Assembly: GCA_025454375.1 (NCBI GenBank)
Contig: JALOOO010000022.1
Location: forward strand, 1 to 33,926
Reading direction: 5' to 3'
Origin: Leptolyngbya sp. Prado105
Lineage (GTDB): Bacteria > Cyanobacteriota > Cyanobacteriia > Leptolyngbyales > Leptolyngbyaceae
DNA: 33,926 nucleotides
Shown here piece after piece: positions 1-24,220 of this stretch. The translations under genes and the position numbers were made by a program. Below the pieces are notes generated by a model that was not told where the DNA came from, did no database searches, and was given only the letters and a program-made list of their open reading frames with translations. Position 1 is the first letter of the stretch. The number at the start of each line of letters is the position of its first letter.

Positions 1-2799
1 CATTAGTATTGCAGCGGTTGACCGACTCATATTCATCGCCATCCGAACTGCCATTTGTTCATAGATCTTCTCGCGGAAATCCTTCACACGAGGGGATTGA
101 GATCCTAAGAGTAAATGGACTCCAAAAGAACGCCCCTGTTTCGCTATCGTCTCTAAAGCATCATTTAGGCGATCGCACAGGCGACCATCTGCTTGCAGAT
201 ACATTTGCTGATATTCATCAATGACAATCAGCAGACGGGGTAGAGTTTTGCCTGTTGTCTTGCGATAAATTTCTAAATTAGAAGCTCCAATTGACTTAAA
301 GGCTTTTCCTCGCGCTTCAATTTCAGCGATCGCGCGTTCTAAAACGCTCAATCCGAACTCTGCATCGCTTTCAATTGAAATTACCTTCGCGTGGGGTAAT
401 ATTCGAGTTGGATCGGGATCATTGAGAGCATTCGGATTGCCTAACTGATCAGGAGTCACATAGATTTGGAATTCTACCCCTTCTTTAAAGTCGAGCAAAT
501 AAAGCTCTAGCTCATCTGGAGAATAGTGCAGCGCTAAGCTGAAAATAATGGCATGAAGCGTATAGCTTTTTCCTGAACCTGTTGTTCCAGCGAGCAACGC
601 GTGAGCAGGTTCATATGACCCATCCGCATACATTCCAACTAAAAACTCCAGTCGATCTCTTGCGCCTGCCATACCAATTGGAGCAGAGAGGTTTCGAGCG
701 CTACTTGCCAGCCATAGCTTCTCAGGATACAGCCGATGAAAGGGAATCACATCCGTTGGAATATTCCGAAGGGCTTCGCCGACCTTTGTTGCAATTTGAT
801 TGAATTGCACATGATCAGGTGGAGTATCTAATCGCACTCGAAAAGCTGCGCCACGCGGAAGCTGCAATGTGAAAAGCGGAACTCCCTCATGCTGAAAATC
901 TTCCGTTTGTAGTGCTAACCATGCTGCTGATCGGGCTTCCTCTTCCTGAATGCCTAAACAGGTCAGAGTAGCGCGATCTTGAGCGTCAATACTATTAACT
1001 TTAACTGCGAGGATTTGTCCGATCGTAATGGCTTCTTCTGGTTGGCGGATGCGATGCTCGGTCATTTGAGCCGTTGGCAGCATTCCTTCACGTCCCGGAA
1101 GAAATTCTACAAATGCCCCAGAGTGAAGGATTCGTGTGACTTGCCCTAAGTAAACATAACCTACTTTAAAGCTTCCAGCTCGCCGGAAGCTTCCTCCTGT
1201 TGTCAACCCATAGGCAGGGCGTAAAACAGTACAGCACTCGTCGAATAGCTCGTAGCGGAAATCTCTCGGCTTTTCAAGGATATCATCTACATGGAGAACA
1301 ACATAGACCCCTGCTCGTGCGCCATTAAGCAACAAGCTTTTCAAATCTTCGATCGCGCTTCGATCAAATCCAGTTGGAAAATCGGCAATAAAGACATATC
1401 GATATGCTTCTGAGATCGCGGTACTATCTGCGTTATAGTCTTCAATCATCTCGTAGTTACGACTGAGGTAATTTTGAGTGATTTGCTCGACATGCTGAGC
1501 GAGTGCCCTCAATTGCTCCCGAATATCCTCACTGCGAGTGTAGGTCTGCTTTGCAACAATTTCATTGGGAAAATTCCGAAATGGGAACGTATTGCCAGCA
1601 TTGACTGGATCGATCAAGATTGTCTTGCAGGTCTTTACAGGCATAGAAGCGATCGTGCGAACAGCAAGTGACTCAATTGAGTGCAGCACCGCTTGTCTTG
1701 AATCGCCATCATTACTCAAGAAAGCAACATGACCAGAATGATGACGCTTCGCACTTGGCTGATTTGCTCGTAACGAGAGCAGTGCAGGAACAGTTCCTTC
1801 TTCCTGCTCTCGTTCGATCAGCAGAGTCCCAAAGCGAAATAGAGCCTGTAGGTCATCTTGTTTTGGAGCAGTATAGTCCTGCCACGCTTGATGCTGCCAA
1901 TCCCAAGCAGGGAGATTTAAGGACTCGATCATTGGGGTAATGTAGCCTTGTTGGTTTTGCCACTCATCCCGCAGATTTTTGGGTTTGACTTCTGTCGCAT
2001 CATAACGAGCAGCAGCGGTAAATGCTCGAATCGTTTCTAAGTAACCCAATGCGCTTTGGCGCAAATTCTCTAGATCAAGTCGTAGTTGAGCTTCTTGAGT
2101 TCTCTTTTTCTGAAGAAGCTGGGCTTCTTGGTCGAAAATATATTGTCGGAAACTTTTAACCGCTTTAACTAACTCCTGATAAGTTTTTGACACTTTGCAT
2201 AGACAAAGAATTGCGGTCAGCAAGCTATGCTCATAAAAAATTGGCAGGACAGTGGCAATGCAAAGTGCAGATAAGGCAGTAATCGCTGTGGAATCGAAGT
2301 TTTTCGTGAAATAGGCAGCAAGTGCAACGACCCCTACGATCGTGAGGAGACAGAGGAAAATTGCCATCTTGGCAGCATCAAGCCGATTCAATGCCCCTTT
2401 GCAGTCCTGCTCTAATTGCTCTTGCTGATCTCTGAGTGCCTGCAAATCTGCTTCATATCGTTTTTGGATATCATTAAGCTGATTTTGGAAGTTGCTCTGA
2501 AAGTGCTGAAGTTGTTTGAGTTCCTGTTGAAGTGTGTCCGAGATTCCTAGCAAAGTATCTCGATCAACACGCAAGAGAGCAATGTCTTGAGCCGTCCATT
2601 CTGCTTCGCTTGCAGACCCTAAAACTTTAGGAGATGTAGACTTATTTAAGCCATATTGCGCTGCTAAACCTTCAGCATTTGAGAGCTTACTCTCGTACCA
2701 GGAAAGTTCTACCCTTGAATTTTGCAGTTCACGATAGCGTTGATCGATTAGGGTGAGGCTATCGTGGTACTGGTTGAGAGAGTCGAAATGATGTGACAT
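1..2799 (-). CDS. FtsK/SpoIIIE-type membrane ATPase with internal S1 domain (C-terminus cut by window edge)
   Basis: Translating the minus strand from the ATG at 2799 gives 933 residues with no stop before the left edge, so the gene is partial. Residues 1-135 are coiled coil. Hydrophobic segments lie near 145-165 and 172-200, probably a membrane hairpin. A second helical region follows. Residues about 390-530 look like a divergent, Walker-less P-loop-type domain. Residues 554-622 are an S1 (OB-fold) domain. The active motor has Walker A GTTGSGKS at 738-745, LLDFKE just after it, and Walker B LLIVIDEYQ at about 856-864, as in FtsK/SpoIIIE/HerA pumps. The start lies 9 bp after the upstream coiled-coil gene, so the two are probably co-transcribed. 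The family suggests ATP-driven translocation of DNA or protein; the substrate is unknown. EccC/EssC (type VII secretion) also combine membrane segments with several FtsK domains, but no WXG100 partner is visible here. Confidence 0.88.
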   Translation of the reverse strand, partial: MSHHFDSLNQYHDSLTLIDQRYRELQNSRVELSWYESKLSNAEGLAAQYGLNKSTSPKVLGSASEAEWTAQDIALLRVDRDTLLGISDTLQQELKQLQHFQSNFQNQLNDIQKRYEADLQALRDQQEQLEQDCKGALNRLDAAKMAIFLCLLTIVGVVALAAYFTKNFDSTAITALSALCIATVLPIFYEHSLLTAILCLCKVSKTYQELVKAVKSFRQYIFDQEAQLLQKKRTQEAQLRLDLENLRQSALGYLETIRAFTAAARYDATEVKPKNLRDEWQNQQGYITPMIESLNLPAWDWQHQAWQDYTAPKQDDLQALFRFGTLLIEREQEEGTVPALLSLRANQPSAKRHHSGHVAFLSNDGDSRQAVLHSIESLAVRTIASMPVKTCKTILIDPVNAGNTFPFRNFPNEIVAKQTYTRSEDIREQLRALAQHVEQITQNYLSRNYEMIEDYNADSTAISEAYRYVFIADFPTGFDRSAIEDLKSLLLNGARAGVYVVLHVDDILEKPRDFRYELFDECCTVLRPAYGLTTGGSFRRAGSFKVGYVYLGQVTRILHSGAFVEFLPGREGMLPTAQMTEHRIRQPEEAITIGQILAVKVNSIDAQDRATLTCLGIQEEEARSAAWLALQTEDFQHEGVPLFTLQLPRGAAFRVRLDTPPDHVQFNQIATKVGEALRNIPTDVIPFHRLYPEKLWLASSARNLSAPIGMAGARDRLEFLVGMYADGSYEPAHALLAGTTGSGKSYTLHAIIFSLALHYSPDELELYLLDFKEGVEFQIYVTPDQLGNPNALNDPDPTRILPHAKVISIESDAEFGLSVLERAIAEIEARGKAFKSIGASNLEIYRKTTGKTLPRLLIVIDEYQQMYLQADGRLCDRLNDALETIAKQGRSFGVHLLLGSQSPRVKDFREKIYEQMAVRMAMNMSRSTAAILM

Positions 2800-2808
2800 A
2801 AGCTCAGT

Positions 2809-4590
2809 TTACAATTCAGTCAGTTGCTTTTTCTTGAGAAATAGGGTGGCAGCGGACACACTATAAGCTCCTGCTGCACTTATGAAGAATGGTTTCTGGT
2901 CATCCCCAGATGCAAGTGAGCAGCCTCCTGCGAGTACGCCGATCACAACATGAGCAATTAAGAAACCCTGTAGCTTTTTCTGAGTTTTGTGGCGCACTTC
3001 TGCATAGACCGGATGTCCGCTTCCGAGAGCAGGTAAGAACTGAGTAATCGATTGATGAATCGGAAATAAAGTCCCTAAATTACCAAATGGCAGTACAGAG
3101 ATCCCCAGAAGAATCTTTAAACGTCGCGCAAATTCGTCTGCTTTCTCTTTGGGCTGTTGCGAAATGTCATAGAGACAACGAGACAGGGTGTCAAGACCGC
3201 CAATCAACTCTTGCCGTTTCTTCTGAAGTTTTTGACGATATTCTAGAAACGCGAAGCCTTCATTCGTGTCGATCGCTTGTGCTGCTGAGATAGATAGCAT
3301 TTCTGTTTCTAGAATTGCCTTGATCAGCTTTGTTAAATTGATACCTAGCGAGGTTTCAATCTCTAGCTGCATTGCTTCAAGGAGTTCTTTTTGCTGACGG
3401 AGATATTCATCTTGAATGTCCTCATCAAAGATACCTAGGACAAAGCGAGAATAATCAAATGCTTCACCCAGACGAGCTTCTTTGTTTTGACGGATGAGGT
3501 GCAGTTTTGCTTTACTCTCTGCGAGTACTCCTGCTATCAGGTCGAACGTGTCAGCCATGTGTTCTGCAAAAGCGTCGATGCCAATAATGTTTTCTTCAAA
3601 TTGCTCTCGTCGATCGTGAATCTGAGCTGCAATGTGGGCTAACTCACGTGGGTCAATCACTTCTTTATACTGGAAGTTTGAATTGACAATGAGAGACGCG
3701 AGCGTATGGGCAGAATCACCATTGACCCTACATTCGCTGTAGGGTAACTGCTCAAGTTGAGCCTGCATCGCATCAAAGATTGCTTCATTCTCACGGAAGC
3801 ATTCATAAACATAAGTCAAAATCTCCGAAAATCCACTTTTAAGATCCTCTGAGTACTTCTCGACTAGTGTTTCTAACTCGCCGTTAAGTTGACGGAAAAT
3901 GTTGCTTGCAGTGTTGCGATCGTTAGTACTCTCAATACGATCGTACAGGAAAGTATAGGCTTTTTTTGCCATGAACAGCAGCACAAAAGATTCAAAGATC
4001 AGCGCTTTATTATGAAAGCAGTCGTAGACAAGTTGCTGAAGCTTACCCAGGAAAGCAACCATGTCTCGATCAAGAGCAGGTTTGAGTTCTTCTTCTTTTT
4101 GACGGATCTGCTCTTCACATTCAGCTTGCTTATCTTTGAATCGCTCTAAAGCATCTTCGTATCGTTCTTTGGCTCGCATCGTTTGGTCAACCAAACGTCG
4201 ATGATAATCGATTTCATTGTTGTACTTTTGTACTCTTTCATTGTGGCGAGCAACTGCATTGTGATCGCTTCGATCTAAAAATAAACCGGAGGGAGCATCC
4301 ATCGGGCGATTTGCATTTGCCCGAGACTGTGCTGCCTGAAACTCAGTTTGTGTGTCTTGGAGACGCTGGCGATAGCTTTCTAGATTCGCCTCTTGACGTG
4401 CAGCAAACTCAGCAACTTTTTGCTGAGTCTTCGCATAGTTGTCTGCTTTGATAATCCCAGCTAGCTCATCATCATCATCATAGTTAATTCCTGAGTCGCC
4501 TAGCCCTATAAAAAAATTAATGTTCGCGATCGGATCGATTAAGTCGCGAACTGCATACAATGATTGGTTACTACCTACTACGTAAACCAT
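2809..4590 (-). CDS. Large coiled-coil membrane protein, partner of the FtsK-like ATPase
   Basis: I do not recognise a named family. The protein is about 593 residues and mostly charged helix. Heptad-rich coiled coil covers roughly residues 50-190 and 370-470. A compact helical middle part follows the first coil. Two hydrophobic segments near 545-590 form a likely C-terminal membrane hairpin, ending in a basic-then-acidic tail. An ATG two codons upstream at 4596 is possible. I prefer 4590 because GGAGAG lies 7 nt before it, whereas it is almost touching the 4596 ATG. The gene ends 9 bp before the FtsK-like ATPase and both have membrane segments, so a physical complex is a reasonable inference. 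There is no enzymatic motif that I can see. Confidence 0.85.
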   Translation of the reverse strand: MVYVVGSNQSLYAVRDLIDPIANINFFIGLGDSGINYDDDDELAGIIKADNYAKTQQKVAEFAARQEANLESYRQRLQDTQTEFQAAQSRANANRPMDAPSGLFLDRSDHNAVARHNERVQKYNNEIDYHRRLVDQTMRAKERYEDALERFKDKQAECEEQIRQKEEELKPALDRDMVAFLGKLQQLVYDCFHNKALIFESFVLLFMAKKAYTFLYDRIESTNDRNTASNIFRQLNGELETLVEKYSEDLKSGFSEILTYVYECFRENEAIFDAMQAQLEQLPYSECRVNGDSAHTLASLIVNSNFQYKEVIDPRELAHIAAQIHDRREQFEENIIGIDAFAEHMADTFDLIAGVLAESKAKLHLIRQNKEARLGEAFDYSRFVLGIFDEDIQDEYLRQQKELLEAMQLEIETSLGINLTKLIKAILETEMLSISAAQAIDTNEGFAFLEYRQKLQKKRQELIGGLDTLSRCLYDISQQPKEKADEFARRLKILLGISVLPFGNLGTLFPIHQSITQFLPALGSGHPVYAEVRHKTQKKLQGFLIAHVVIGVLAGGCSLASGDDQKPFFISAAGAYSVSAATLFLKKKQLTEL

Positions 4591-4954
4591 AATCATTCTC
4601 TCCAGTATCGTAAAGTGGTTTCGCTCTGAGTCAAGAATTCTGCTCTAGTAAACACTTTTCCTTAAGCATATTTGTAGAGAAGAATACAGAGAAAATATCA
4701 AAAGTTTAAACATCCCTCGAAATATTACTGACTCGTCGATCTCTTTGTGCAACTCCGCGTTTTCAATTGCTCTGCATGGACAGAACAAAGAGTTGGATCT
4801 GGAGTAAGTAAGTTTGCGCAAATTATAAAATTTCTGTAGATATAATTCTGAGAAATCCCGGAGCCTGTCACAGTAAGTTTTGGGCTGAATAGAGATTGAA
4901 GAAGCGATGCGTTCGCTCGTATCTATTGCTGCCCCAACATTAAGCCTTTAAACT
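4591..4954. promoter_or_regulatory. Divergent intergenic control region
   Basis: This 364-bp AT-rich gap separates the leftward ATPase/coiled-coil pair from the rightward protease cluster, so it must hold promoters for both. A perfect TATAAT lies at 4841-4846 on the plus strand, about 110 bp before the metalloprotease start. No good TTGACA sits 17 bp upstream of it, so any promoter there would depend on an activator or an extended -10. I see no further ORF in it. Confidence 0.4.
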
Positions 4955-6967: not shown

Positions 6968-8728
6968 ATGAAATTTTCAGGTTATATTCCTGCGATTGTT
7001 AGCAGTGTCCTTGTGAGTACTATTGCTTCAGCCGTCGCAGCACCGAAGAGCGTTGAGCAGATTCGAGCGATCGCACAGCAGGTAACAGCTCGGATTGAGA
7101 GTCCAGCAGATTCGGGATCAGGCGTGATCATTGCGAAGACTCCAAGTCAGAAAGGCTATACCTATTCTGTTTTGACGGCTTATCACGTGATTGCAGGCAT
7201 TGGTGTGCAAGAGAGTATTGAGATTGTGACTGCTGATCGGCAGCGGCATCAGATTACAGCAAAATCTGTTAAAGCCTTTCCAAAAGACATTGACCTTGCG
7301 GTGCTAGAGTTTACTAGCCAACAAGAGTATTCTGTTGCAAAAATCTCAACCTATCCCTATCGACTATATGAGAATCGGGAATACGATCGTACACAATCGC
7401 CCCAGATGTACCGGAGTGCATCCGAGCAAAATCAGCATGTGGTCTTTGTTGCTGGATTTCCCAATGCAGAAAATACGAATCAACTTGTCATCAATCCTGG
7501 TTTCTTAGTGGACACCTCCGCTTCTGCGATTAGTAACCCACAAGCTCGCTATCAGAGCTATGAATTGCTCTATAGCAATATGACCCATCCGGGGATGAGT
7601 GGGGGAGGTGTGTTTGATGCTCAGGGGCGACTGATTGGGATTCATGGGCGTTCTGACGGGCGGCAGATTGATCAAAATGATCAAACGGTCAAACCATTTC
7701 TCGAAGAAATGAGTGATGGGTATCGAGTGCGACTGGGGTTGAGTTTGGGAATTCCGATTTCGACTTTTCTCCGGCTTGCTCCTCAGTATGGTGTGCGACT
7801 TTCTCTGACTGAGGAGAAGACTGCTCCAGGTAAAATACCAATGCCTTCACTCGCATCGGCTTGGCGACCTCCGAATCCATTACCTCCTTCTAATCCGTTT
7901 CATTGGATTGAGCGAGGCAATCAAGAATGGCGAGTTGGGCAATTTTCTCAAGCTCAAACGAGCTTCGATCGAGCTGTTGCGATCCGTCGTGATCTCTCTT
8001 ATGGCTGGTTTGCGAAGGGCTTCGTTTACGGATTTTCTCGGGATTATCCCAATGCTTTATCTGCCTGTACTAAAGCGATCGAAGTTCATCCAAGTCGCAA
8101 TCGTTACTATGACGGTTGGCGATGTCGATCTGGAGCATTGCAATATCTAAAACAATTTCCGGCTGCCCTTGAAGCGCTAAATCAAGCGATTTCGATTCAA
8201 TCTCAATTGAAGCAAGACGCGATCGCAGACGGTACGACCCCCGCTGTTCAGAATCCTTCAGATTTAGCCGCACGGGCTGAAATCTTATTCGCGATGCAGC
8301 AATATCAGGGCGCATTGAATGCTTTAGATCAAGCAATTGAACTCCGAATTGAGCAGCAGCTTCCTGATTCTGCCCGATTGCGAAATTCACGCGCTTTGAT
8401 ATTGATGGTTTTGAAGCAGAATGAAGCCGCGATCTTAGAGTGCGACCAAGCGCTCAAGCTCGATCCAAACTATGCTACAGCTTGGATGACTCGCGGAATG
8501 ATCTTAAGCCGTATGAATCAACTACCTCAAGCACTCGAAGCATACGAGAAAGCAGCTCGGCTGGAGCCGAGAAATGTCACACTCTGGAACAATCGAGGAA
8601 CCTTACTGTTTTCAATGCAGCAGTATGAAGCAGCCCTGAGTGCATTTGAGCAAGCCTTGAAGCTCGATCCAAACTATGAACCTGCTCGGCGTAATCATGC
8701 AGATCTATTGCAGCAGATGAAACGTTGA
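6968..8728 (+). CDS. Trypsin-like serine protease with C-terminal TPR repeats, secreted
   Basis: The product is 586 residues. A clear signal peptide ends near residue 25 (ASAVAA-P). The chymotrypsin-fold domain spans about 35-270, with the catalytic triad visible: H73 in LTAYHV, D109 in DIDLAVLEF and S211 in GMSGGG. A proline-rich linker (about 285-312) leads to roughly six TPR units in 313-586. The last two are canonical, with LDPNYATAW and LDPNYEPAR signatures. The family is the cyanobacterial 'TPR-containing serine protease' group. The TPRs probably select the substrate or partner. It starts 30 bp after the M48 gene and is likely in the same operon. It resembles the 289-residue protease at 10858 in the protease domain only. 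Confidence 0.92.
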   Translation: MKFSGYIPAIVSSVLVSTIASAVAAPKSVEQIRAIAQQVTARIESPADSGSGVIIAKTPSQKGYTYSVLTAYHVIAGIGVQESIEIVTADRQRHQITAKSVKAFPKDIDLAVLEFTSQQEYSVAKISTYPYRLYENREYDRTQSPQMYRSASEQNQHVVFVAGFPNAENTNQLVINPGFLVDTSASAISNPQARYQSYELLYSNMTHPGMSGGGVFDAQGRLIGIHGRSDGRQIDQNDQTVKPFLEEMSDGYRVRLGLSLGIPISTFLRLAPQYGVRLSLTEEKTAPGKIPMPSLASAWRPPNPLPPSNPFHWIERGNQEWRVGQFSQAQTSFDRAVAIRRDLSYGWFAKGFVYGFSRDYPNALSACTKAIEVHPSRNRYYDGWRCRSGALQYLKQFPAALEALNQAISIQSQLKQDAIADGTTPAVQNPSDLAARAEILFAMQQYQGALNALDQAIELRIEQQLPDSARLRNSRALILMVLKQNEAAILECDQALKLDPNYATAWMTRGMILSRMNQLPQALEAYEKAARLEPRNVTLWNNRGTLLFSMQQYEAALSAFEQALKLDPNYEPARRNHADLLQQMKR

Positions 8729-8779
8729 CCCTGTTATTCCTCTAAGTTTTAACCCATTTGCAATTCGGAGAAATCACTC

Positions 8780-10108
8780 ATGGCTAAAAGTAAACTGTGG
8801 TTCTGTAAAGGTATTCAAGGCAGTGCAGCGCACCCACCGCATGAACCTGCTCATATGAGTACTTTTCAAGCAAAGTGCAGTATTTGCGGACTCGATCAAG
8901 CTTCTGCGGCAAGCTTACAAGTCTCAACCCCTTCTCCTGAGACAGTGTCTCCTCTATCCGCGACACCTTCAACCCCATCGCCTCCGACTGTAACAACTAC
9001 CGAGGCAGCACCTTTAGCGACTTCAGCACTTCAGTCTACATCAACTCCAGAAGCAGCTACGATTTCAACAGCGACCCCAACAGTAATTTCAGCTCCTCAG
9101 GTTGCACCCACTGCAGAGCAGTCTCCGATTCCAGCAGTTACTCAGACTGTACCAATTCCAGAAGTTGCACCTACTTTGGAAACTCAACCGACTCCAAGTC
9201 AGCCAACTGTACTAATTTCGCCATTTTCATCAAATCCGGAAACAGAAACGGCAGGACATTCCCCATCTGTCGTAGATCGCTTGACTTCTTCTCCAGTTGC
9301 GATTTCGATCGCAGCTTCGATCGCAGCAGCAGGATTACTAGGAGGAACGTGGTTTGCGATTCCAAATATTCCAGGAGTCTGCAACACGCTTGGAAATTGT
9401 CAAGCTTGGAATACAGAACTGCAACAAGTAATTCAGGCTGCTGATACAGCACAATCGGAAGTCAATCAAGCGAATACGCTTCAAACTCTAACAACAGCCC
9501 ATGATCGTTTCAAAGCCGCGATCGCGAAAGTAGAGAGCTTGAAGACCTATTCAAAACTCAAATCGCAAATCGAAACAGCATTATCTAAGTATCAACCCAC
9601 TCTCGCTCAATCAGAGGCGAAATTGAGCCAAGAAAAGCAAGCTCAAGCCCAACTGAGCAACGCAGAAGCGATCGCGCAATCTGCTAAAGTTCTCTCTGAT
9701 GTGAGTCAGAAAGAGCAGTCTCCTGCAACAGCCGAGCAGGCTCAGAAAAAATGGAATGAAGCGATCTCCGCGTTAAACAAAGTTCCGCAAAATACTTTTG
9801 CGTCAAAACAAATCAGCGATCGAACTCAGTCTTATACTGCAAGTCGAGATCAACTTAATTCCATCATTGCAAGCGGTATTATTCAGCAGAATAGTCAACC
9901 TGCGCCTGCGCCTATGCCCGTCGTTTCATCCGGATCAAGTGAGCCTGCCTCTTACTATGAGCCACCGACTCAAGCAGCTTATACTGCTCCTGCTGCCCCT
10001 CAAGCTCCTGCCCCTCAAGCTCCTGCCCCTCAAGCTCCTGCTGCTGCTGAAGAACGCCCGATCACAATCGATCTTGGAGAAGATCCATTCACAAAGACTC
10101 AGCCCTAA
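8780..10108 (+). CDS. Membrane protein with N-terminal Cys/His cluster, Pro/Thr-rich linker and helical outer domain
   Basis: No known family is recognised. Of 442 residues, the first 40 contain C9, H18, H21, H25 and C33-x-x-C36, which could bind one zinc ion. Residues about 45-165 are low-complexity Pro/Thr/Ala/Ser. One strong membrane segment covers about 172-195. C201 and C207 follow directly and could form a disulfide. Residues 205-355 are Gln/Ala-rich helix, and the tail holds PQAPA repeats. Because the first residues are not a signal peptide, the zinc cluster should sit in the cytoplasm and the helical part outside. This layout would suit a link between a cytoplasmic factor and the secreted proteases on either side. 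GGAG lies 9 nt before the ATG. Confidence 0.8.
   Translation: MAKSKLWFCKGIQGSAAHPPHEPAHMSTFQAKCSICGLDQASAASLQVSTPSPETVSPLSATPSTPSPPTVTTTEAAPLATSALQSTSTPEAATISTATPTVISAPQVAPTAEQSPIPAVTQTVPIPEVAPTLETQPTPSQPTVLISPFSSNPETETAGHSPSVVDRLTSSPVAISIAASIAAAGLLGGTWFAIPNIPGVCNTLGNCQAWNTELQQVIQAADTAQSEVNQANTLQTLTTAHDRFKAAIAKVESLKTYSKLKSQIETALSKYQPTLAQSEAKLSQEKQAQAQLSNAEAIAQSAKVLSDVSQKEQSPATAEQAQKKWNEAISALNKVPQNTFASKQISDRTQSYTASRDQLNSIIASGIIQQNSQPAPAPMPVVSSGSSEPASYYEPPTQAAYTAPAAPQAPAPQAPAPQAPAAAEERPITIDLGEDPFTKTQP
9998..10042 (+). repeat. Three 15-bp tandem units inside a coding region (PQAPA x3)
   Basis: The unit cctcaagctcctgcc occurs three times head to tail, the last with one base changed. It is in frame with the 442-residue membrane protein and encodes PQAPA at residues 407-421. 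Such an array can change copy number by slippage without shifting the frame. Confidence 0.9.
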
Positions 10109-10124
10109 CTTTACGATCAACGCG

Positions 10125-10217
10125 CTGCTATGAGAATTGCAGATCGCTGCGGTGTCTCGACCCAATTATTTTTGAGCCAAATTTCTCAGATTACCCCCGT
10201 GACATCCCTCATAGCAG
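10125..10217. promoter_or_regulatory. Long-range inverted repeat in the leader of the COP23 gene
   Basis: CTGCTATGAG (10125-10134) is matched perfectly by its reverse complement CTCATAGCAG (10208-10217), 73 nt apart. Both lie in the 146-bp gap before the COP23-domain gene. In RNA they could pair and close a large loop just upstream of the AGGAG ribosome-binding site. No known riboswitch was recognised, and chance cannot be excluded. Confidence 0.3.
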
Positions 10218-10254
10218 ATGGCTCAACGTTCATCTTACTTAGGAGCATAATCTT

Positions 10255-10797
10255 ATGCGATCGACATTGAAATGGATTTCAGGAACATCTGCTGTATTTC
10301 TTCTCACAACTTTGAGCTTTAGCCGCCCAGCTCAAGCTAATGAGACAACTTTTACCTGTAGCACCAGTCAAGGAACCCCCACAACGGTTGCACAAACTTC
10401 AGAAGATGAAGTCCCCATCATTCGGTTTAACTCCAGCTATTTCAATGATAGAGGTTGGAGCCCAGAACGTCGTTGCCAAGAAGTTTCTGCCCGTTTTCAG
10501 CGCTTTCATCAAGCGAAGCAACTCCGGTACATCACTGTCGGGACAATGAATCGGCAACGAATTGTCTGTGTTGCTGAGAGCAAAACCAGTGGATGCTTGA
10601 AAGATGGATTGCTGTTTACGCTCAAACCGACGAGCAATGCAAATGCGACATTGAGGCAGCTTTTTGGCATTAAAGACCAAGCTGCTGGTCCTTTGAGCGA
10701 ATCGCGGGGTCGAGCTTACATTGACATCAATGAATTGCTCTCAAGACGCTCTAACGCCGCCCCTCGTAACGCAACACCTAAAAAATCTGTTTGGTAA
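10255..10797 (+). CDS. COP23-domain secreted protein
   Basis: The product is 180 residues. A signal peptide spans 1-28 (hydrophobic core VFLLTTLSF, cut after PAQA). The mature part matches the cyanobacterial COP23 family in size and pattern: FTCSTSQG at the start, a central IIRFNS strand and a W-x-x-x-x-R-C motif. Its four cysteines are C35, C74, C105 and C114, enough for two disulfides. COP23 was first described as a circadian-oscillating membrane-associated polypeptide of a unicellular cyanobacterium; its molecular role is unknown. AGGAG lies 9 nt before the ATG. It sits between two trypsin-like protease genes, so it may be a substrate, inhibitor or chaperone of them; that is inference. Confidence 0.85.
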   Translation: MRSTLKWISGTSAVFLLTTLSFSRPAQANETTFTCSTSQGTPTTVAQTSEDEVPIIRFNSSYFNDRGWSPERRCQEVSARFQRFHQAKQLRYITVGTMNRQRIVCVAESKTSGCLKDGLLFTLKPTSNANATLRQLFGIKDQAAGPLSESRGRAYIDINELLSRRSNAAPRNATPKKSVW

Positions 10798-10811
10798 TCA
10801 ACTCTGAAGCT

Positions 10812-10837
10812 GGACAGGGATGTTTTCATCCTTGTCC
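10812..10837 (+). terminator. Hairpin between COP23 and second protease gene
   Basis: An 11-bp stem with one G-U pair (GGACAGGGATG / CATCCTTGTCC) closes a TTTT loop. It starts 14 bp after the COP23 stop codon. The downstream T-tract is weak (CTTTCATTT), so it may act as a partial terminator or mRNA stabiliser that sets the ratio of the two genes. Confidence 0.55.
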
Positions 10838-10857
10838 CTTTCATTTGGTGAACTCGA

Positions 10858-11727
10858 ATGTTGTTTCTTGTCCGATTTCTGACTCTATTTTTGCTCACAT
10901 TTGTGATCGTTCAATCAAGAGCCATTGATGCTGCTGTAGCAAGTAATTCTGGCGAAGAAACCACAATCAATGTTGCTGCACTGAAAACTTACAGTCGCCA
11001 GATTAGTGTCAAAGTTATTGCTGGAGACACAAGTGGTTCTGGTGTGTTGATTCAGCGTCAGGGACATCTGTACAGTGTGATCACGAATGCTCATGTTTTA
11101 CAGTCTGCTTCTTATCAGGTGCAGACTGTAGATGGGCAGATTTATTCTGCAACTCGACTTGCCGCAAATGTTCAAGATAATGATCTTGCAGTCTTGCAAT
11201 TTCAAGCAGCAAGATCTTATATTGTCGCAACACTTGCACCGGATTTAGAAGTGCAGGAAGGAGATCTGGTCATTGCTGTTGGCTTTCCTTTTAATCGTCG
11301 CCATACCGACGCGACTGGATTCAAGTTTACTCAGGGTCAAATTTCTTTGCTGCTGAATACTCCCTTACAGGGGGGATATCAATTGGGGTACACAAATGCG
11401 ATCGAAAAGGGAATGAGTGGCGGTGCTGTTCTCAATGAGCGCGGCTATTTAATCGGGGTAAATGGGGTTCATGCTCGCCCGATACTGGGCGGCAGTCGAA
11501 ATTATCAAGATGGCAGTCAACCTTGTCTACCGATTCAGCGTCTTGTGTTTCGTTCAAGTTGGGCACTGCCTGCGGATACGATTTTCTCTGTTTTTGGCAG
11601 CTTACTCGCATTACAGATTGCCCCTCCGCTATTTGTTGATCCAGCAGACAAGCAGTTTGATGTTTCCTGGCATCGGCTCCAAATGCAGCAGAATGCAGCG
11701 ATCGCAAAACAGTGCCAGGATATGTAA
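10858..11727 (+). CDS. Secreted trypsin-like serine protease
   Basis: The product is 289 residues. A signal peptide covers 1-26 (LFLVRFLTLFLLTFVIV core). The chymotrypsin-type domain spans about 40-215, with the triad intact: H79 in ITNAHV, D109 in NDLAVLQF and S187 in GMSGGAV. The last ~75 residues contain another hydrophobic stretch (about 235-255) and no TPRs or PDZ, unlike DegP/HtrA. It follows the COP23 gene after a hairpin and is the last gene of the rightward cluster. The start is the first codon of the hydrophobic leader; only a weak GGTGA precedes it. Confidence 0.9.
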   Translation: MLFLVRFLTLFLLTFVIVQSRAIDAAVASNSGEETTINVAALKTYSRQISVKVIAGDTSGSGVLIQRQGHLYSVITNAHVLQSASYQVQTVDGQIYSATRLAANVQDNDLAVLQFQAARSYIVATLAPDLEVQEGDLVIAVGFPFNRRHTDATGFKFTQGQISLLLNTPLQGGYQLGYTNAIEKGMSGGAVLNERGYLIGVNGVHARPILGGSRNYQDGSQPCLPIQRLVFRSSWALPADTIFSVFGSLLALQIAPPLFVDPADKQFDVSWHRLQMQQNAAIAKQCQDM

Positions 11728-18821: not shown

Positions 18822-20972
18822 ATGCAAGAGTTCGAGAAGTCAATATCCTTTGATGGTAGGGATATTCGACTCAAAGTAGGCTTGTTAGCACCCCAAGCTG
18901 GAGGTTCAGTTTTAATCGAATCTGGAGACACGGCAGTCCTCGTTACTGCGACCCGTGCGAGTGCCAGAGAAGGAATCGATTTTCTCCCGCTGTTAGTTGA
19001 TTACGAGGAGCGCCTGTATGCAGCCGGACGAATTCCCGGTGGCTTCCTCCGACGAGAAGGACGACCCGCTGAAAAAGCAGTTTTGACGAGTCGTTTAATC
19101 GATCGCCCTTTGCGCCCCTTATTTCCTTCCTGGTTACGAGACGATATTCAAGTCGTCGCCACCACGATGTCGATGGATGAGCGAGTCCCTCCGGACGTTT
19201 TAGCGGTCACAGGTGCGTCGATCGCGGTTCTCCTCGCCAAAATCCCATTCAATGGTCCAATGGCTGCGGTTCGAGTCGGTCTTGTCGGTGACGATTTTAT
19301 TATCAACCCCACTTATAAAGAAGTGGAAACAGGCGATTTGGATCTCGTTGTGGCGGGATCTCCCGAAGGCGTAATCATGGTGGAAGCAGGTGCAAATCAA
19401 CTGCCCGAAGCCGACATGATTGAAGCGATCGACTTTGGTTACGAAGCAGTCCGCGATTTGATTCAGGCACAGCGCGACTTGCTCACAGAATTAGGCATCG
19501 AACTGGTGCAAGAACAAGCGCCTGTGATCGATCCGACCTTAGAGAATTTTATTCGAGAGCGCGTGACGGCTCCTGTGAAAGAAATTCTTGGACGGTTCGA
19601 GAAAGACAAACCGACGCGCGATGCAGCGCTCGATGAAGTCAAAGCTTCCGTCCTCAGCACGATCGCAGAATTGCCTGAAGAAGACGCGGTTAAGGTTGCA
19701 GCAGCAGCAGATGCAAAAGCGCTGAGCAATACATTTAAGGATGTAACGAAAACGCTGATGCGTCGTCAAGTCGTCGAAGACAATGTGCGCGTCGATGGTC
19801 GTAAACTCGATGAAATTCGCCCCATCTCTTGCCGAGTCGGGGTTTTACCTCAACGGGTGCATGGCAGTGGCGTATTTAATCGCGGCTTGACTCAAGTTTT
19901 ATCGATCGCGACTTTAGGCAGTCCCGGCGACGAGCAAGAAATGGATGACTTGCATCCCGACAGCGAGAAACGCTACCTACACCATTACAATTTCCCGCCT
20001 TTTTCGGTTGGAGAAACGCGCCCGATGCGCTCTCCCGGTCGGCGTGAAGTCGGTCACGGAGCCTTAGCAGAGCGTGCTTTAGTTCCAGTTTTACCTCCGA
20101 AAGAAACATTTCCTTATGTGATTCGGGTTGTTTCAGAAGTCTTGTCCTCAAATGGTTCGACCTCAATGGGTTCCGTTTCGGGTTCGACTTTAGCCTTGAT
20201 GCACGCAGGCGTTCCTATCTTGAAACCTGTCAGCGGTGCGGCAATGGGACTGATCAAGGAAGGCGAAGAAATTCGCATTCTCACCGATATCCAGGGGATT
20301 GAAGATTTCCTCGGCGATATGGATTTTAAAGTGGCGGGAACCGATACCGGAATTACGGCATTGCAACTCGACATGAAGATCGCTGGCTTGCCGATGGAAG
20401 TGATTGCTTCGGCGATTCACCAAGCGAAACCTGCTCGATTGCACATTCTTAGCAAGATGCTAGAAGCGATCGACGAGCCGCGTGCCGAATTGTCTCCTTA
20501 TGCGCCTCGCCTGCTCACGATCAAGATCGATCAAGATCAGATCGGGATGATTATCGGGCCCGGCGGGAAGACGATCAAAGGCATTACCGAAGAAACGGGA
20601 GCCAAGATTGATATTGCTGAAGATGGAACCGTAACGATTAGCGCGATCGAAGGCGAGAAAGCGAAACGGGCGAAAGCGATTATCCAAGGCATGACTCGCA
20701 AGCTGAGTGCGGGCGATATTTATGCTGGGAAAGTGACGCGGATTATTCCGATCGGTGCGTTTGTTGAATTCCTTCCGGGTAAAGAAGGGATGATTCACAT
20801 CTCGCAGCTTGCAGATCATCGGGTCGGCAAAGTTGAAGATGAAGTCGCACTTGGAGACGAAGTGATTGTGAAGATTCGGGAAATTGATAACCGAGGACGA
20901 GTGAATCTGACTCGCTTAGGCATTCACCCCGATGAAGCAACTGCGGCACGAGAAGCGGCAGCAGCGAAGTAG
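18822..20972 (+). CDS. pnp: Polyribonucleotide nucleotidyltransferase (PNPase)
   Basis: The product is 716 residues, the usual length for cyanobacterial PNPase. Two RNase PH domains (about 10-230 and 325-550) flank an all-helical linker. The second has the catalytic-core sequences ([41 protein letters not shown]). The KH domain follows, with [13 protein letters not shown] near 576-588, then an S1 domain (about 632-705, [13 protein letters not shown]). The enzyme degrades RNA phosphorolytically from the 3' end and can add tails. It is a single gene with its own terminator. Its S1 domain is strikingly like the one inserted in the FtsK-type ATPase at the left of this window. Confidence 0.98.
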
Positions 20973-21484: not shown

Positions 21485-24220
21485 ATGCCCGAACCTACTC
21501 CCGAAAAGTCGCTCTCTGAAAAAATTACGGATGCCCTGACAAAGTTTCTCGTCGTGGGAAGCGGGGGATATGCGATGTATTCTTTGTTTGATCAAGAGAT
21601 TCCGAAGGCGCTGATTGCAGCAGCAGTATCGGTCGGAACAGCACTGACGACTAGCTTTGGGGAGGGGCTGATGAAGGTGCTGAAAGAAAGCATGAGTCAG
21701 CGAGGGGAAAAATCGGGCAAAGCGATCGACAGAGGCATTACAAACGCTGAAAAATCGGCAACTCAGCTTAAAGAGCGGATTTTTAGTCCCAAGAAGAGCT
21801 ATCTGAATGCGCTGAAAACGCAATGCACAATGATGGAATCGGAGGGAGAATCAGTCCTCTCTGGTGGAATTCCGCTTAAAGATGTGTATGTGCCGCTGCA
21901 AGTTGTTTCGTCACAGACTCAAGGCATGTCGCGTGCGCCTCAGCAAATTTGGGCATTTCTGCCAGGGTTGCAAAGTCGAGAAGTTCAGCATCGACGAATT
22001 GCGATCGCAGCCGGAGCCGGATCGGGGAAGACGACGTTATTGCGATATCTCACGTTGTGTTATGTCACAGAGGTGTATCAACAGCATCAGGTTCGCGAGT
22101 TTATTCCTGTGCTGCTGAGGTTTCGCGATATCTTTGCAGAGATTCCACCGGAAGGAACGATCGCGCTACCGGAGTTGATTTTAAAGTCTTTGGCAAAGCA
22201 ACCAGAGGGAGAAGATCTAAAGACTTCTCGGCTGTGGTTTGAGGAGCAACTAAAGCAGGGTCGATGTTTGGTGATGTTTGACGGGCTGGATGAAGTGCCC
22301 AAAAGTCAGCGACATCGGATTAAAAAGTGGGTCGATTATCAGATGAAACGCTATGGCAAGACGAGATTTATCCTCACGTCTCGTCCGGCGGGATTGGAGC
22401 TAGAAGACGAAGTGGGCAATCTCGCACAGATTGAGGTCGATACGTCGTTAGAGGTTTTGCCGTTTAATCCCGATGACATCGATCGATTTGTGCAGCAGTG
22501 GTATCGTGCGTTGATTGCGCCAATGTGGAAGAGAGCGCTAGAAGACAGTTCACGCAAGCCTGTAGCAGAGCGATTAGACCCGGAAGCCGTCGAAGCTGAG
22601 ATTGGACGATCGGTAAAAAAGAGTGCTGATAGTCTAACGCGACAGATTTTTGCGAGTTCGGCTCTGACGGGACTGGCTCGAACTCCCTTGTTAGTCAAGC
22701 TCATCGCGATTACGCACGATGAGAATATCGAACTGCCGAAGCGTCGAGTCTCGCTGTATAAGGACATTTGTGATGTCTTGTTGCGGAAACGGGCAACGAA
22801 GTTTAGCGATCGACGAACACCGTTAGAGCTAGAGGATAAACTCGCTTTGCTGCAAGTGTTGGCGTGGAATCTGATGCAGCAAGAGGTGAATACGTTTTGT
22901 ATGTCGCAGGGGACGCAGTGGATTCAGGAGCGGTTTCGGCAGGCTTGTGCAGATGAGGCGATTAAGCCGAAACAGTTTTTGATCGAACTGATCGAGATTG
23001 CAGGGCTGATTGTGGAGCAAGAACACGATACGTATGAGTTTTCACATCAAACCTTTCAGGAGTATTTTGCAGCGCTTTATCTCAAGGCACAGGGACAGGA
23101 ATCGTTGCTAGTCGAGAAAGTGACGAACGATCGCTGGTTAGAAGTGTGTTGTTTTTCGGCATCAATGGGTCAGACGACGAGGATTGTGAATGCGGCTTTG
23201 GATGCGTTGCCGACAGCACCGGAAAAGAACAAACCACATTTGCTCAAACTGATGACACGATGCCGAAATGAAGGTGTGCCGATGAATTCTGAAACGAGTC
23301 AACGGCTCGATCGTGCATTAGAGCAGGCAGCGCAGGATGGCAACATTGCAGCAGAGATTCGACTTCAGCAACGATTTGAGCTTCAGAGTACGTTGCTCAT
23401 TGGTCAAGCGGAGGTCTGCACAGAGTATATTACTTGGGGGGAATATCAACTGTTCTTAACGGCACAGGAAACGAAGCAGTACCATTCTCAAGCAAAACAG
23501 ATCGACATCTCGATCGATCAACTCAATGAACCTGTGAAAGGCATTTCCTGGCAAGATGCTCAGTGGTTTTGTAATTGGATGTCTTCTCTGCCTTCACTTC
23601 AGAGTCCCACGCAAGCCTATGACTATCGCTTGCCTACTTCGGCAGAGCTTGACTCGATCGCAAGTTTAACGATCGAGGGATTGATCCCGTTTATCGATCG
23701 CTCAGATGCGCCCGGAAATTCGCTCAAAATTGTGCGATCGACATTACCAGATCGCTATACAGATTTACACAACTACTTAGCAAATGGTCGCTGGAAAGAT
23801 GCCGACCAAGAGACTTATCAAGTAATGCTCAAAGTTGCAAACCGAACTGAGCAGAGATATTTGGATGTGGAGGATATTCAGAAGTTTCCTTGTGAGGATT
23901 TACAAATCATCGATCGACTTTGGGTGAAGTTCAGTCTCGGTCACTTTGGCTTCAGTGTGCAGAAACAGATTTATGTCGAGACGGGAAATCCTTTAGATGG
24001 GCGATATCATGAAGAAACCTACAAGCGGTTTGGCGATCGCGTTGGTTGGCGTATGAAAGAAGAATGGATATCGTACTCTGACGTAACTTTTGATACCTCT
24101 TCTCCAATGGGACACTTACCCTGGAGTTTTGAAGGTCAGTTGTGGATGTGGAAAGTGTGGGAAGGGGGTCTCTCTTCTCTCGCGCAGAGACTTGTGAACT
24201 GTAGCACGAGCCAGTCCTAG
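21485..24220 (+). CDS. NACHT-family STAND NTPase with FGE-sulfatase-like C-terminal domain
   Basis: The product is 911 residues. Residues 15-60 hold two hydrophobic stretches, possibly membrane-active or a membrane anchor, followed by a helical segment. The NACHT ATPase starts near 170: Walker A GAGSGKTT at 177-184 with K182, and Walker B LVMFDGLDE around 262-270 (D266 and D269-E270, the NACHT-type acidic pair). SRPAGL and EFSHQTFQEYFAALYL, the typical NACHT winged-helix closing motif, follow. Residues about 630-740 resemble the formylglycine-generating-enzyme (FGE-sulfatase) fold: ISWQDAQWFCNWM and YRLPTSAEL. It is a single gene beside a toxin-antitoxin zone. Some bacterial NACHT proteins defend against phage, and the FGE-like end may serve as sensor. 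Both are inference for this copy. Confidence 0.92.
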   Translation: MPEPTPEKSLSEKITDALTKFLVVGSGGYAMYSLFDQEIPKALIAAAVSVGTALTTSFGEGLMKVLKESMSQRGEKSGKAIDRGITNAEKSATQLKERIFSPKKSYLNALKTQCTMMESEGESVLSGGIPLKDVYVPLQVVSSQTQGMSRAPQQIWAFLPGLQSREVQHRRIAIAAGAGSGKTTLLRYLTLCYVTEVYQQHQVREFIPVLLRFRDIFAEIPPEGTIALPELILKSLAKQPEGEDLKTSRLWFEEQLKQGRCLVMFDGLDEVPKSQRHRIKKWVDYQMKRYGKTRFILTSRPAGLELEDEVGNLAQIEVDTSLEVLPFNPDDIDRFVQQWYRALIAPMWKRALEDSSRKPVAERLDPEAVEAEIGRSVKKSADSLTRQIFASSALTGLARTPLLVKLIAITHDENIELPKRRVSLYKDICDVLLRKRATKFSDRRTPLELEDKLALLQVLAWNLMQQEVNTFCMSQGTQWIQERFRQACADEAIKPKQFLIELIEIAGLIVEQEHDTYEFSHQTFQEYFAALYLKAQGQESLLVEKVTNDRWLEVCCFSASMGQTTRIVNAALDALPTAPEKNKPHLLKLMTRCRNEGVPMNSETSQRLDRALEQAAQDGNIAAEIRLQQRFELQSTLLIGQAEVCTEYITWGEYQLFLTAQETKQYHSQAKQIDISIDQLNEPVKGISWQDAQWFCNWMSSLPSLQSPTQAYDYRLPTSAELDSIASLTIEGLIPFIDRSDAPGNSLKIVRSTLPDRYTDLHNYLANGRWKDADQETYQVMLKVANRTEQRYLDVEDIQKFPCEDLQIIDRLWVKFSLGHFGFSVQKQIYVETGNPLDGRYHEETYKRFGDRVGWRMKEEWISYSDVTFDTSSPMGHLPWSFEGQLWMWKVWEGGLSSLAQRLVNCSTSQS

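Follow-up and report, generated by a model that had tools for sequence, protein, structure and literature searches.

Why an S1 domain, a fold that generally binds single-stranded RNA, should sit within an FtsK-type membrane ATPase is the question raised by the first gene of the window, the stretch of 33,926 nucleotides from Leptolyngbya sp. Prado105 that was analyzed here as a whole. The gene, its domains, and the two other genes on which the comparison draws are as follows.

Positions 1 to 2799, minus strand: N-terminal 933 of about 1310 amino acids of an EccC/EssC-like FtsK-family ATPase, the rest of the gene being on contig C173 of the same genome
Positions 2230 to 2385, minus strand: two predicted membrane helices, residues 139 to 168 and 170 to 190 (hydropathy; helices with pLDDT of about 80)
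Positions 1171 to 1902, minus strand: putative first, degenerate ATPase-like domain, residues about 300 to 543 (position and family layout, PMC11090510)
Positions 964 to 1170, minus strand: S1 (OB-fold) domain, residues 544 to 612, with PNPase-like similarity to about residue 621 (window position 937) (Pfam, own-genome scan, BLASTP)
Positions 91 to 633, minus strand: active FtsK_SpoIIIE ATPase domain, residues 723 to 903 (Pfam, 85.5 bits; nearest solved structures EccC5, EccC, and YukB)
Positions 565 to 591, minus strand: Walker A motif AGTTGSGKS, residues 737 to 745 (invariant in the family alignment)
Positions 214 to 231, minus strand: Walker B motif LIVIDE, residues 857 to 862 (DE invariant in the family alignment)
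Positions 2812 to 4596, minus strand: upstream partner of 595 amino acids, helical, with two C-terminal hydrophobic segments; its gene sits beside that of the ATPase in the three nearest carriers of S1
Positions 18822 to 20972, plus strand: pnp, encoding PNPase, a comparison gene outside the operon, with its S1 domain at 20703 to 20912 (ORF, Pfam, S1 scan, BLASTP)

The 933-residue ORF of the ATPase is open at the contig end, the window being contig C38 from base 1. A contig match places the last third of the gene at the end of C173, where a WXG100 gene follows it. Alignment with relatives leaves about 7 codons unaccounted for between the two parts of the ATPase, and we infer from the sequences that C38 and C173 adjoin in the genome. 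Full-length homologues of 1308 to 1309 amino acids, 66 to 67% identical over the whole length, are encoded by Planktothrix sp. PCC 11201 and an uncultured cyanobacterium; none of the other genomes of the window's order has a whole-length match. The genomes searched, among them 390 from the class, 391 from one order, and 62 from one family, yielded 27 cyanobacterial members of the ATPase family (to judge from their proteins, G576 and G390 are apparently identical to the genomes L039 and L040). One member (L111, G401:C8:8257-11283) contains eight stop codons within the match and is apparently a pseudogene or a misread join. Viral contigs gave FtsK-domain matches only, at 24 to 32% identity, and plasmids gave remote relatives, of which the two examined (Deinococcus and Rhodococcus) are without S1.

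The protein was initially described as a generic FtsK/SpoIIIE-type pump, a description that the curated models, the solved structures, and the WXG100 partners correct. The best NCBIfam models are EssC (109 bits) and EccCa (95 bits), and because both scores fall below the equivalog cut-offs (778 and 509 bits, respectively), the ATPase is related to these proteins but is not a member of T7SSa or T7SSb. The nearest solved structures to the ATPase domain are EccC5 (8e-25), EccC (4nh0), and YukB, and the C-terminal gamma winged-helix domain of FtsK is absent from the 1309-amino-acid homologue. Judged by these sequence relationships, the protein is a secretion ATPase of the EccC/EssC type, a relative of the motor through which tuberculosis bacteria export proteins, and not a DNA pump. 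Its two membrane helices are preceded by an N-terminal coiled coil (structure model and hydropathy). The conserved first domain, which spans residues of about 300 to 690 when S1 is left out, stands in the same place as the DUF domain of EccC (described in PMC11154593); its position fits that assignment, but profile scans against the EccC DUF family were not significant, nor did a profile comparison with the active domain reach significance. The Walker motifs are intact in the central ATPase domain, while the last domain, although similar to the active one by profile (95.8%), lacks GK[ST] and is thus degenerate. The AlphaFold model of the ATPase (pLDDT 40) was too poor to place S1.

The gene that follows the ATPase gene exceeds the Pfam WXG100 cut-off in two homologues (38.1 and 35.5 bits) and on C173 of the window's own genome (37.2 bits). 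A second WXG-like ORF comes after it, only the first of the two exceeding the cut-off, and the WxG triplet of the WXG100-type ORFs is varied (WSR, WRK, and WKK). Across the family, WXG-like ORFs are joined to or adjoin further domains (L143 8494-9441; L141 4789-6057; L078 5377-6099; L082 9202-9945; L039 13239-14057): GIY-YIG is joined to a WXG-like segment in Planktothrix, a GNAT domain lies in the WXG-like ORFs of L078 and L082, and an ADP-ribosyltransferase domain lies in that of L143, while L141 has an ADP-ribosyltransferase ORF that overlaps a WXG-like gene at that gene's end. These WXG-linked nuclease, acetyltransferase, and ADP-ribosyltransferase ORFs likely encode secreted toxins of a cyanobacterial type VII-like system. 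None of the other canonical T7SS components (EccB, EccD, EccE, EsaA, EssB, and YukD) was recognized beside the ATPase. The upstream partner of 595 amino acids belongs to no Pfam family and has no credible match beyond the closest carriers; its gene was not found beside the ATPase genes of the other two S1 carriers (G542 and G630), and its AlphaFold model had a pLDDT of 42. On the continuation contig, two neighboring genes (L077 11441-12823 and 12929-14227) resemble each other.

The WXG100 neighbors bear on whether the protein might instead be a DNA translocase, or an FtsK/HerA-type defense ATPase, with no link to secretion. Such a role would be in keeping with the FtsK_SpoIIIE Pfam family, with weak matches to HerA and SspH models (PADLOC; FtsK-fold only), and with related operons in Ter and CoCoNuT defense loci. 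We regard it as highly improbable, since EccC and EssC match far better than FtsK or HerA and since the two membrane helices and the constant WXG100 neighbors speak for a secretion ATPase.

An S1 domain inside the ATPase, as first proposed, was borne out by a Pfam match to residues 544 to 612 (42.6 bits against a cut-off of 22) and by an S1 scan of the own genome, which returned positions 964 to 1170 with an E value of 7.8e-12. The initial annotation had set the domain at 934 to 1140 (residues 554 to 622), which refers to this domain with an offset of about 10 residues; its count of 33 identities with the window PNPase in 69 ungapped residues (554 to 622) proved exact on recounting. BLASTP aligns the ATPase S1 with that PNPase at 34/77 identities with no gaps (E value, 3e-18). 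When the segment is compared with the S1 proteins of its own genome, PNPase reaches 65.6 bits and the next one (C258) 24.3 bits, and the ATPase S1 domains of the family are 44 to 51% identical to the S1 domains of cyanobacterial PNPases.

A search for further FtsK proteins with S1 in cyanobacteria, proposed along with the original observation, found the domain at the same linker site in five species, that is, in 5 of the 27 family members (the window genome, G576, G390, G542, and G630); the S1-bearing homologues comprise the two full-length proteins at 66 to 67% identity and two that are more distant. A local assembly artifact is rejected by this recurrence at one site in five species. The site is the linker that joins the first domain, putatively degenerate, to the active ATPase domain. 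In relatives without S1, the motif CTVLRP runs directly into LFxxxLP, which indicates that S1 was inserted cleanly, with a predicted strand on either side. Among the remaining 22 members, the linker is short in 21, and in one (G173) it holds a fragment of DnaK. This fragment occupies residues 413 to 508 of an ATPase encoded at 7682-11257, minus strand, of L084 (G173:C1:1239000-1258500); it corresponds to HSP70 positions 216 to 309 (73 bits), is 65% identical to the DnaK of its host, and is missing from two close relatives of the L084 ATPase.

The linker could be a tolerated insertion point, with S1 serving mostly to fix the spacing of two rings and its identity being hardly important, as the relatives without S1, the one with a DnaK fragment at the same point, and the divergence hotspot that the linker forms in some close pairs would allow. 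We consider this reading unlikely, because specific residues are common to both S1 clades and because across distant species the constraint on S1 equals or exceeds that on the ATPase domain: for the window genome and Planktothrix, dN is 0.116 in S1 and 0.157 in the ATPase domain. The dN/dS of S1 in the same pair is 0.07, an approximate value with silent sites near saturation, and by this measure S1 is under strong purifying selection.

A tree that joined the ATPase S1 domains with those of PNPases, another check proposed at the outset, separated the PNPase side from three other S1 domains of the own genome with a support of 99/97, and the FtsK S1 domains fell on the PNPase side. The five FtsK S1 domains formed one group (87/86); the resolution of the tree is modest because the alignment comprises only 82 columns. 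Recruitment from a pnp gene, as suggested originally, thus agrees with the tree, the identities to PNPase S1 domains, and the own-genome bit scores, by which cyanobacterial PNPase S1 is nearest. In the ATPase tree the S1 carriers stand in two places, which would permit two independent captures, but the tree does not reject a single clade (p-AU, 0.126), and one capture is favored by eight residues that are common to both FtsK S1 clades and absent from 58 PNPases; some of these residues (the PE and GQ positions) resemble the general S1 consensus and therefore count for less. The simplest reading is that S1 was probably captured once, long ago, from a cyanobacterial PNPase and was subsequently lost in some lineages or transferred as a module. 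Capture from the window's own pnp was rejected, as the FtsK S1 domains group together and pnp lies elsewhere in the genomes of the other carriers. Only 16 kb separate the window pnp from the S1-bearing ATPase gene, a proximity that looks accidental because the other carriers have pnp at a great distance or on a different contig. Downstream of pnp (21485-24220), the window encodes a 911-amino-acid protein with NACHT, sulfatase-modifying-factor-like, and GUN4 domains.

One close pair of genes, L096 and L097, suggests that the module can be exchanged locally. Its dS is 0.71 in the S1 segment and 0.14 to 0.20 in the flanks, and the nucleotide identity of the two ATPase genes drops to 76 to 84% across residues of about 320 to 470 (S1 plus linker) from 95 to 100% elsewhere, a combination that points to local recombination. 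One reading is that such pieces act as an integrated decoy: with duplicated parts of essential host proteins (PNPase S1 and a DnaK subdomain) built in, the motor would also be triggered or blocked in secretion by any phage or competitor factor that attacks those proteins. Two different housekeeping fragments at one site, a sporadic distribution, and an S1 that differs far more than its flanks between two near-identical ATPases, silent sites included, as expected for exchanged modules, would accord with this idea. Yet a decoy would be expected to remain similar to the protein it imitates, whereas the capture is old and diverged (44 to 51% to PNPases), the DnaK case is single, and there is no known attacker; we judge the decoy quite improbable. 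A broader and still very unlikely proposal is that the linker serves as a capture site for essential housekeeping pieces (PNPase S1 and DnaK) that, as exchangeable sensor or decoy modules, gate the release of WXG-linked toxins. If true, the linker modules would tell the motor what happens to those housekeeping proteins.

Whether the captured domain could still bind RNA can be read from its contact residues. That S1 retains this activity, tethering cargo-coding mRNA or ribosomes to the motor or sensing RNA as a secretion signal, is suggested by its clear fold, its PNPase ancestry, the purifying selection on it, and the general behavior of S1 domains. The equivalents of Phe22, Asp64, and Arg68 are kept in the clade of the window, so that weak or altered nucleic-acid binding would be possible. 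The recognized RNA site of S1 domains consists of Phe19, Phe22, His34, Asp64, and Arg68 (PMC6705787), and the FtsK S1 domains do not have this full set. The His34 equivalent is histidine in 58/58 PNPase S1 domains and proline in 5/5 FtsK S1 domains, with the entire HIS motif replaced in each of them by PTA, PTN, or PTP. The other positions are mixed: the Phe22 equivalent is F or Y, N and E stand in place of Asp64 and Arg68 in the two copies of the other clade, and the residue preceding GAF, which is I in PNPase S1, is S or G. Most family members, moreover, work without S1. The first observers had offered RNA sensing or movement and a docking OB-fold side by side; the former loses ground, since every copy carries substitutions at His34 and at other contact positions, and we hold RNA binding to be possible but doubtful, while the docking role fits better.

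Purifying selection on a domain without the canonical RNA site is best explained by protein docking or ring coupling, and a docking or regulatory OB-fold of a type VII-like motor is the reading that we tentatively favor over RNA binding. The ATPase would be the motor of a type VII-like operon exporting helical proteins of the WXG100 family, and probably WXG-fused toxins as well. The S1 domain, most likely acquired in a single event from a cyanobacterial PNPase and lodged in the linker that connects the first domain with the active one, would in a hexamer place six OB-folds around the ring, between the membrane-side and motor domains. There it may serve as a docking site for another protein (cargo, a chaperone, or the 595-amino-acid neighbor) instead of binding RNA or, alternatively, may set the coupling of the two rings. 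A domain of an RNA-decay enzyme would thereby have been taken into a secretion motor and kept for long, and its linker position allows a direct test of what a module between the first domain and the motor ring controls. The phrase "S1 domain" is absent from the leading EccC/EssC papers searched, which is weak evidence of novelty given that few subscription papers were covered.

The comparison with cyanobacterial PNPase shows what was retained and what changed: the C-terminal S1 of that enzyme shares the EFLPG and LTxLGI segments with the ATPase S1, with no gaps in the window's clade, and differs by His34 being proline, HIS being PTA, other contact changes, and the absence from the ATPase of attached KH or exonuclease domains. 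The G173 ATPase shares the family, the insertion point, and the insertion of a housekeeping-protein fragment, and differs in having DnaK instead of S1. Of the systems described so far, the stand-alone WXG100/EssC-like operon known from Ter and CoCoNuT loci comes closest. The account of this operon in PMC11090510, citing Anantharaman 2012, places it beside such loci and also describes it as a stand-alone mobile secretion system. Common to both are an EssC-like ATPase with an N-terminal coiled coil, a sporadic spread, Walker motifs intact only in the central ATPase domain with the last one degenerate, and two WXG100-type proteins. The window ATPase differs from the CoCoNuT versions in its two membrane helices, which those lack, and in the S1 domain of its linker. 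Location in a TerY-P or CoCoNuT locus is common for such operons but not required, and no TerY, VWA, or McrBC gene was found among the window ORFs scanned; the Rhodococcus plasmid relative has a TerD domain at the N terminus of its ATPase and TerD neighbors. With EccC of T7SSa and EssC of T7SSb, the window ATPase shares membrane helices, a linker, an active ATPase domain, WXG100 neighbors, and presumably a degenerate first domain in the same place, but it has one ATPase domain fewer, no FHA domains, and the S1 insert. The operon further differs from T7SS in that other T7SS components were not recognized and in its cyanobacterial (diderm) host; a type VII-like operon with likely toxin cargo in cyanobacteria would lie outside the Bacillota and Actinomycetota, the only two phyla covered by the T7SS survey PMC11217815.
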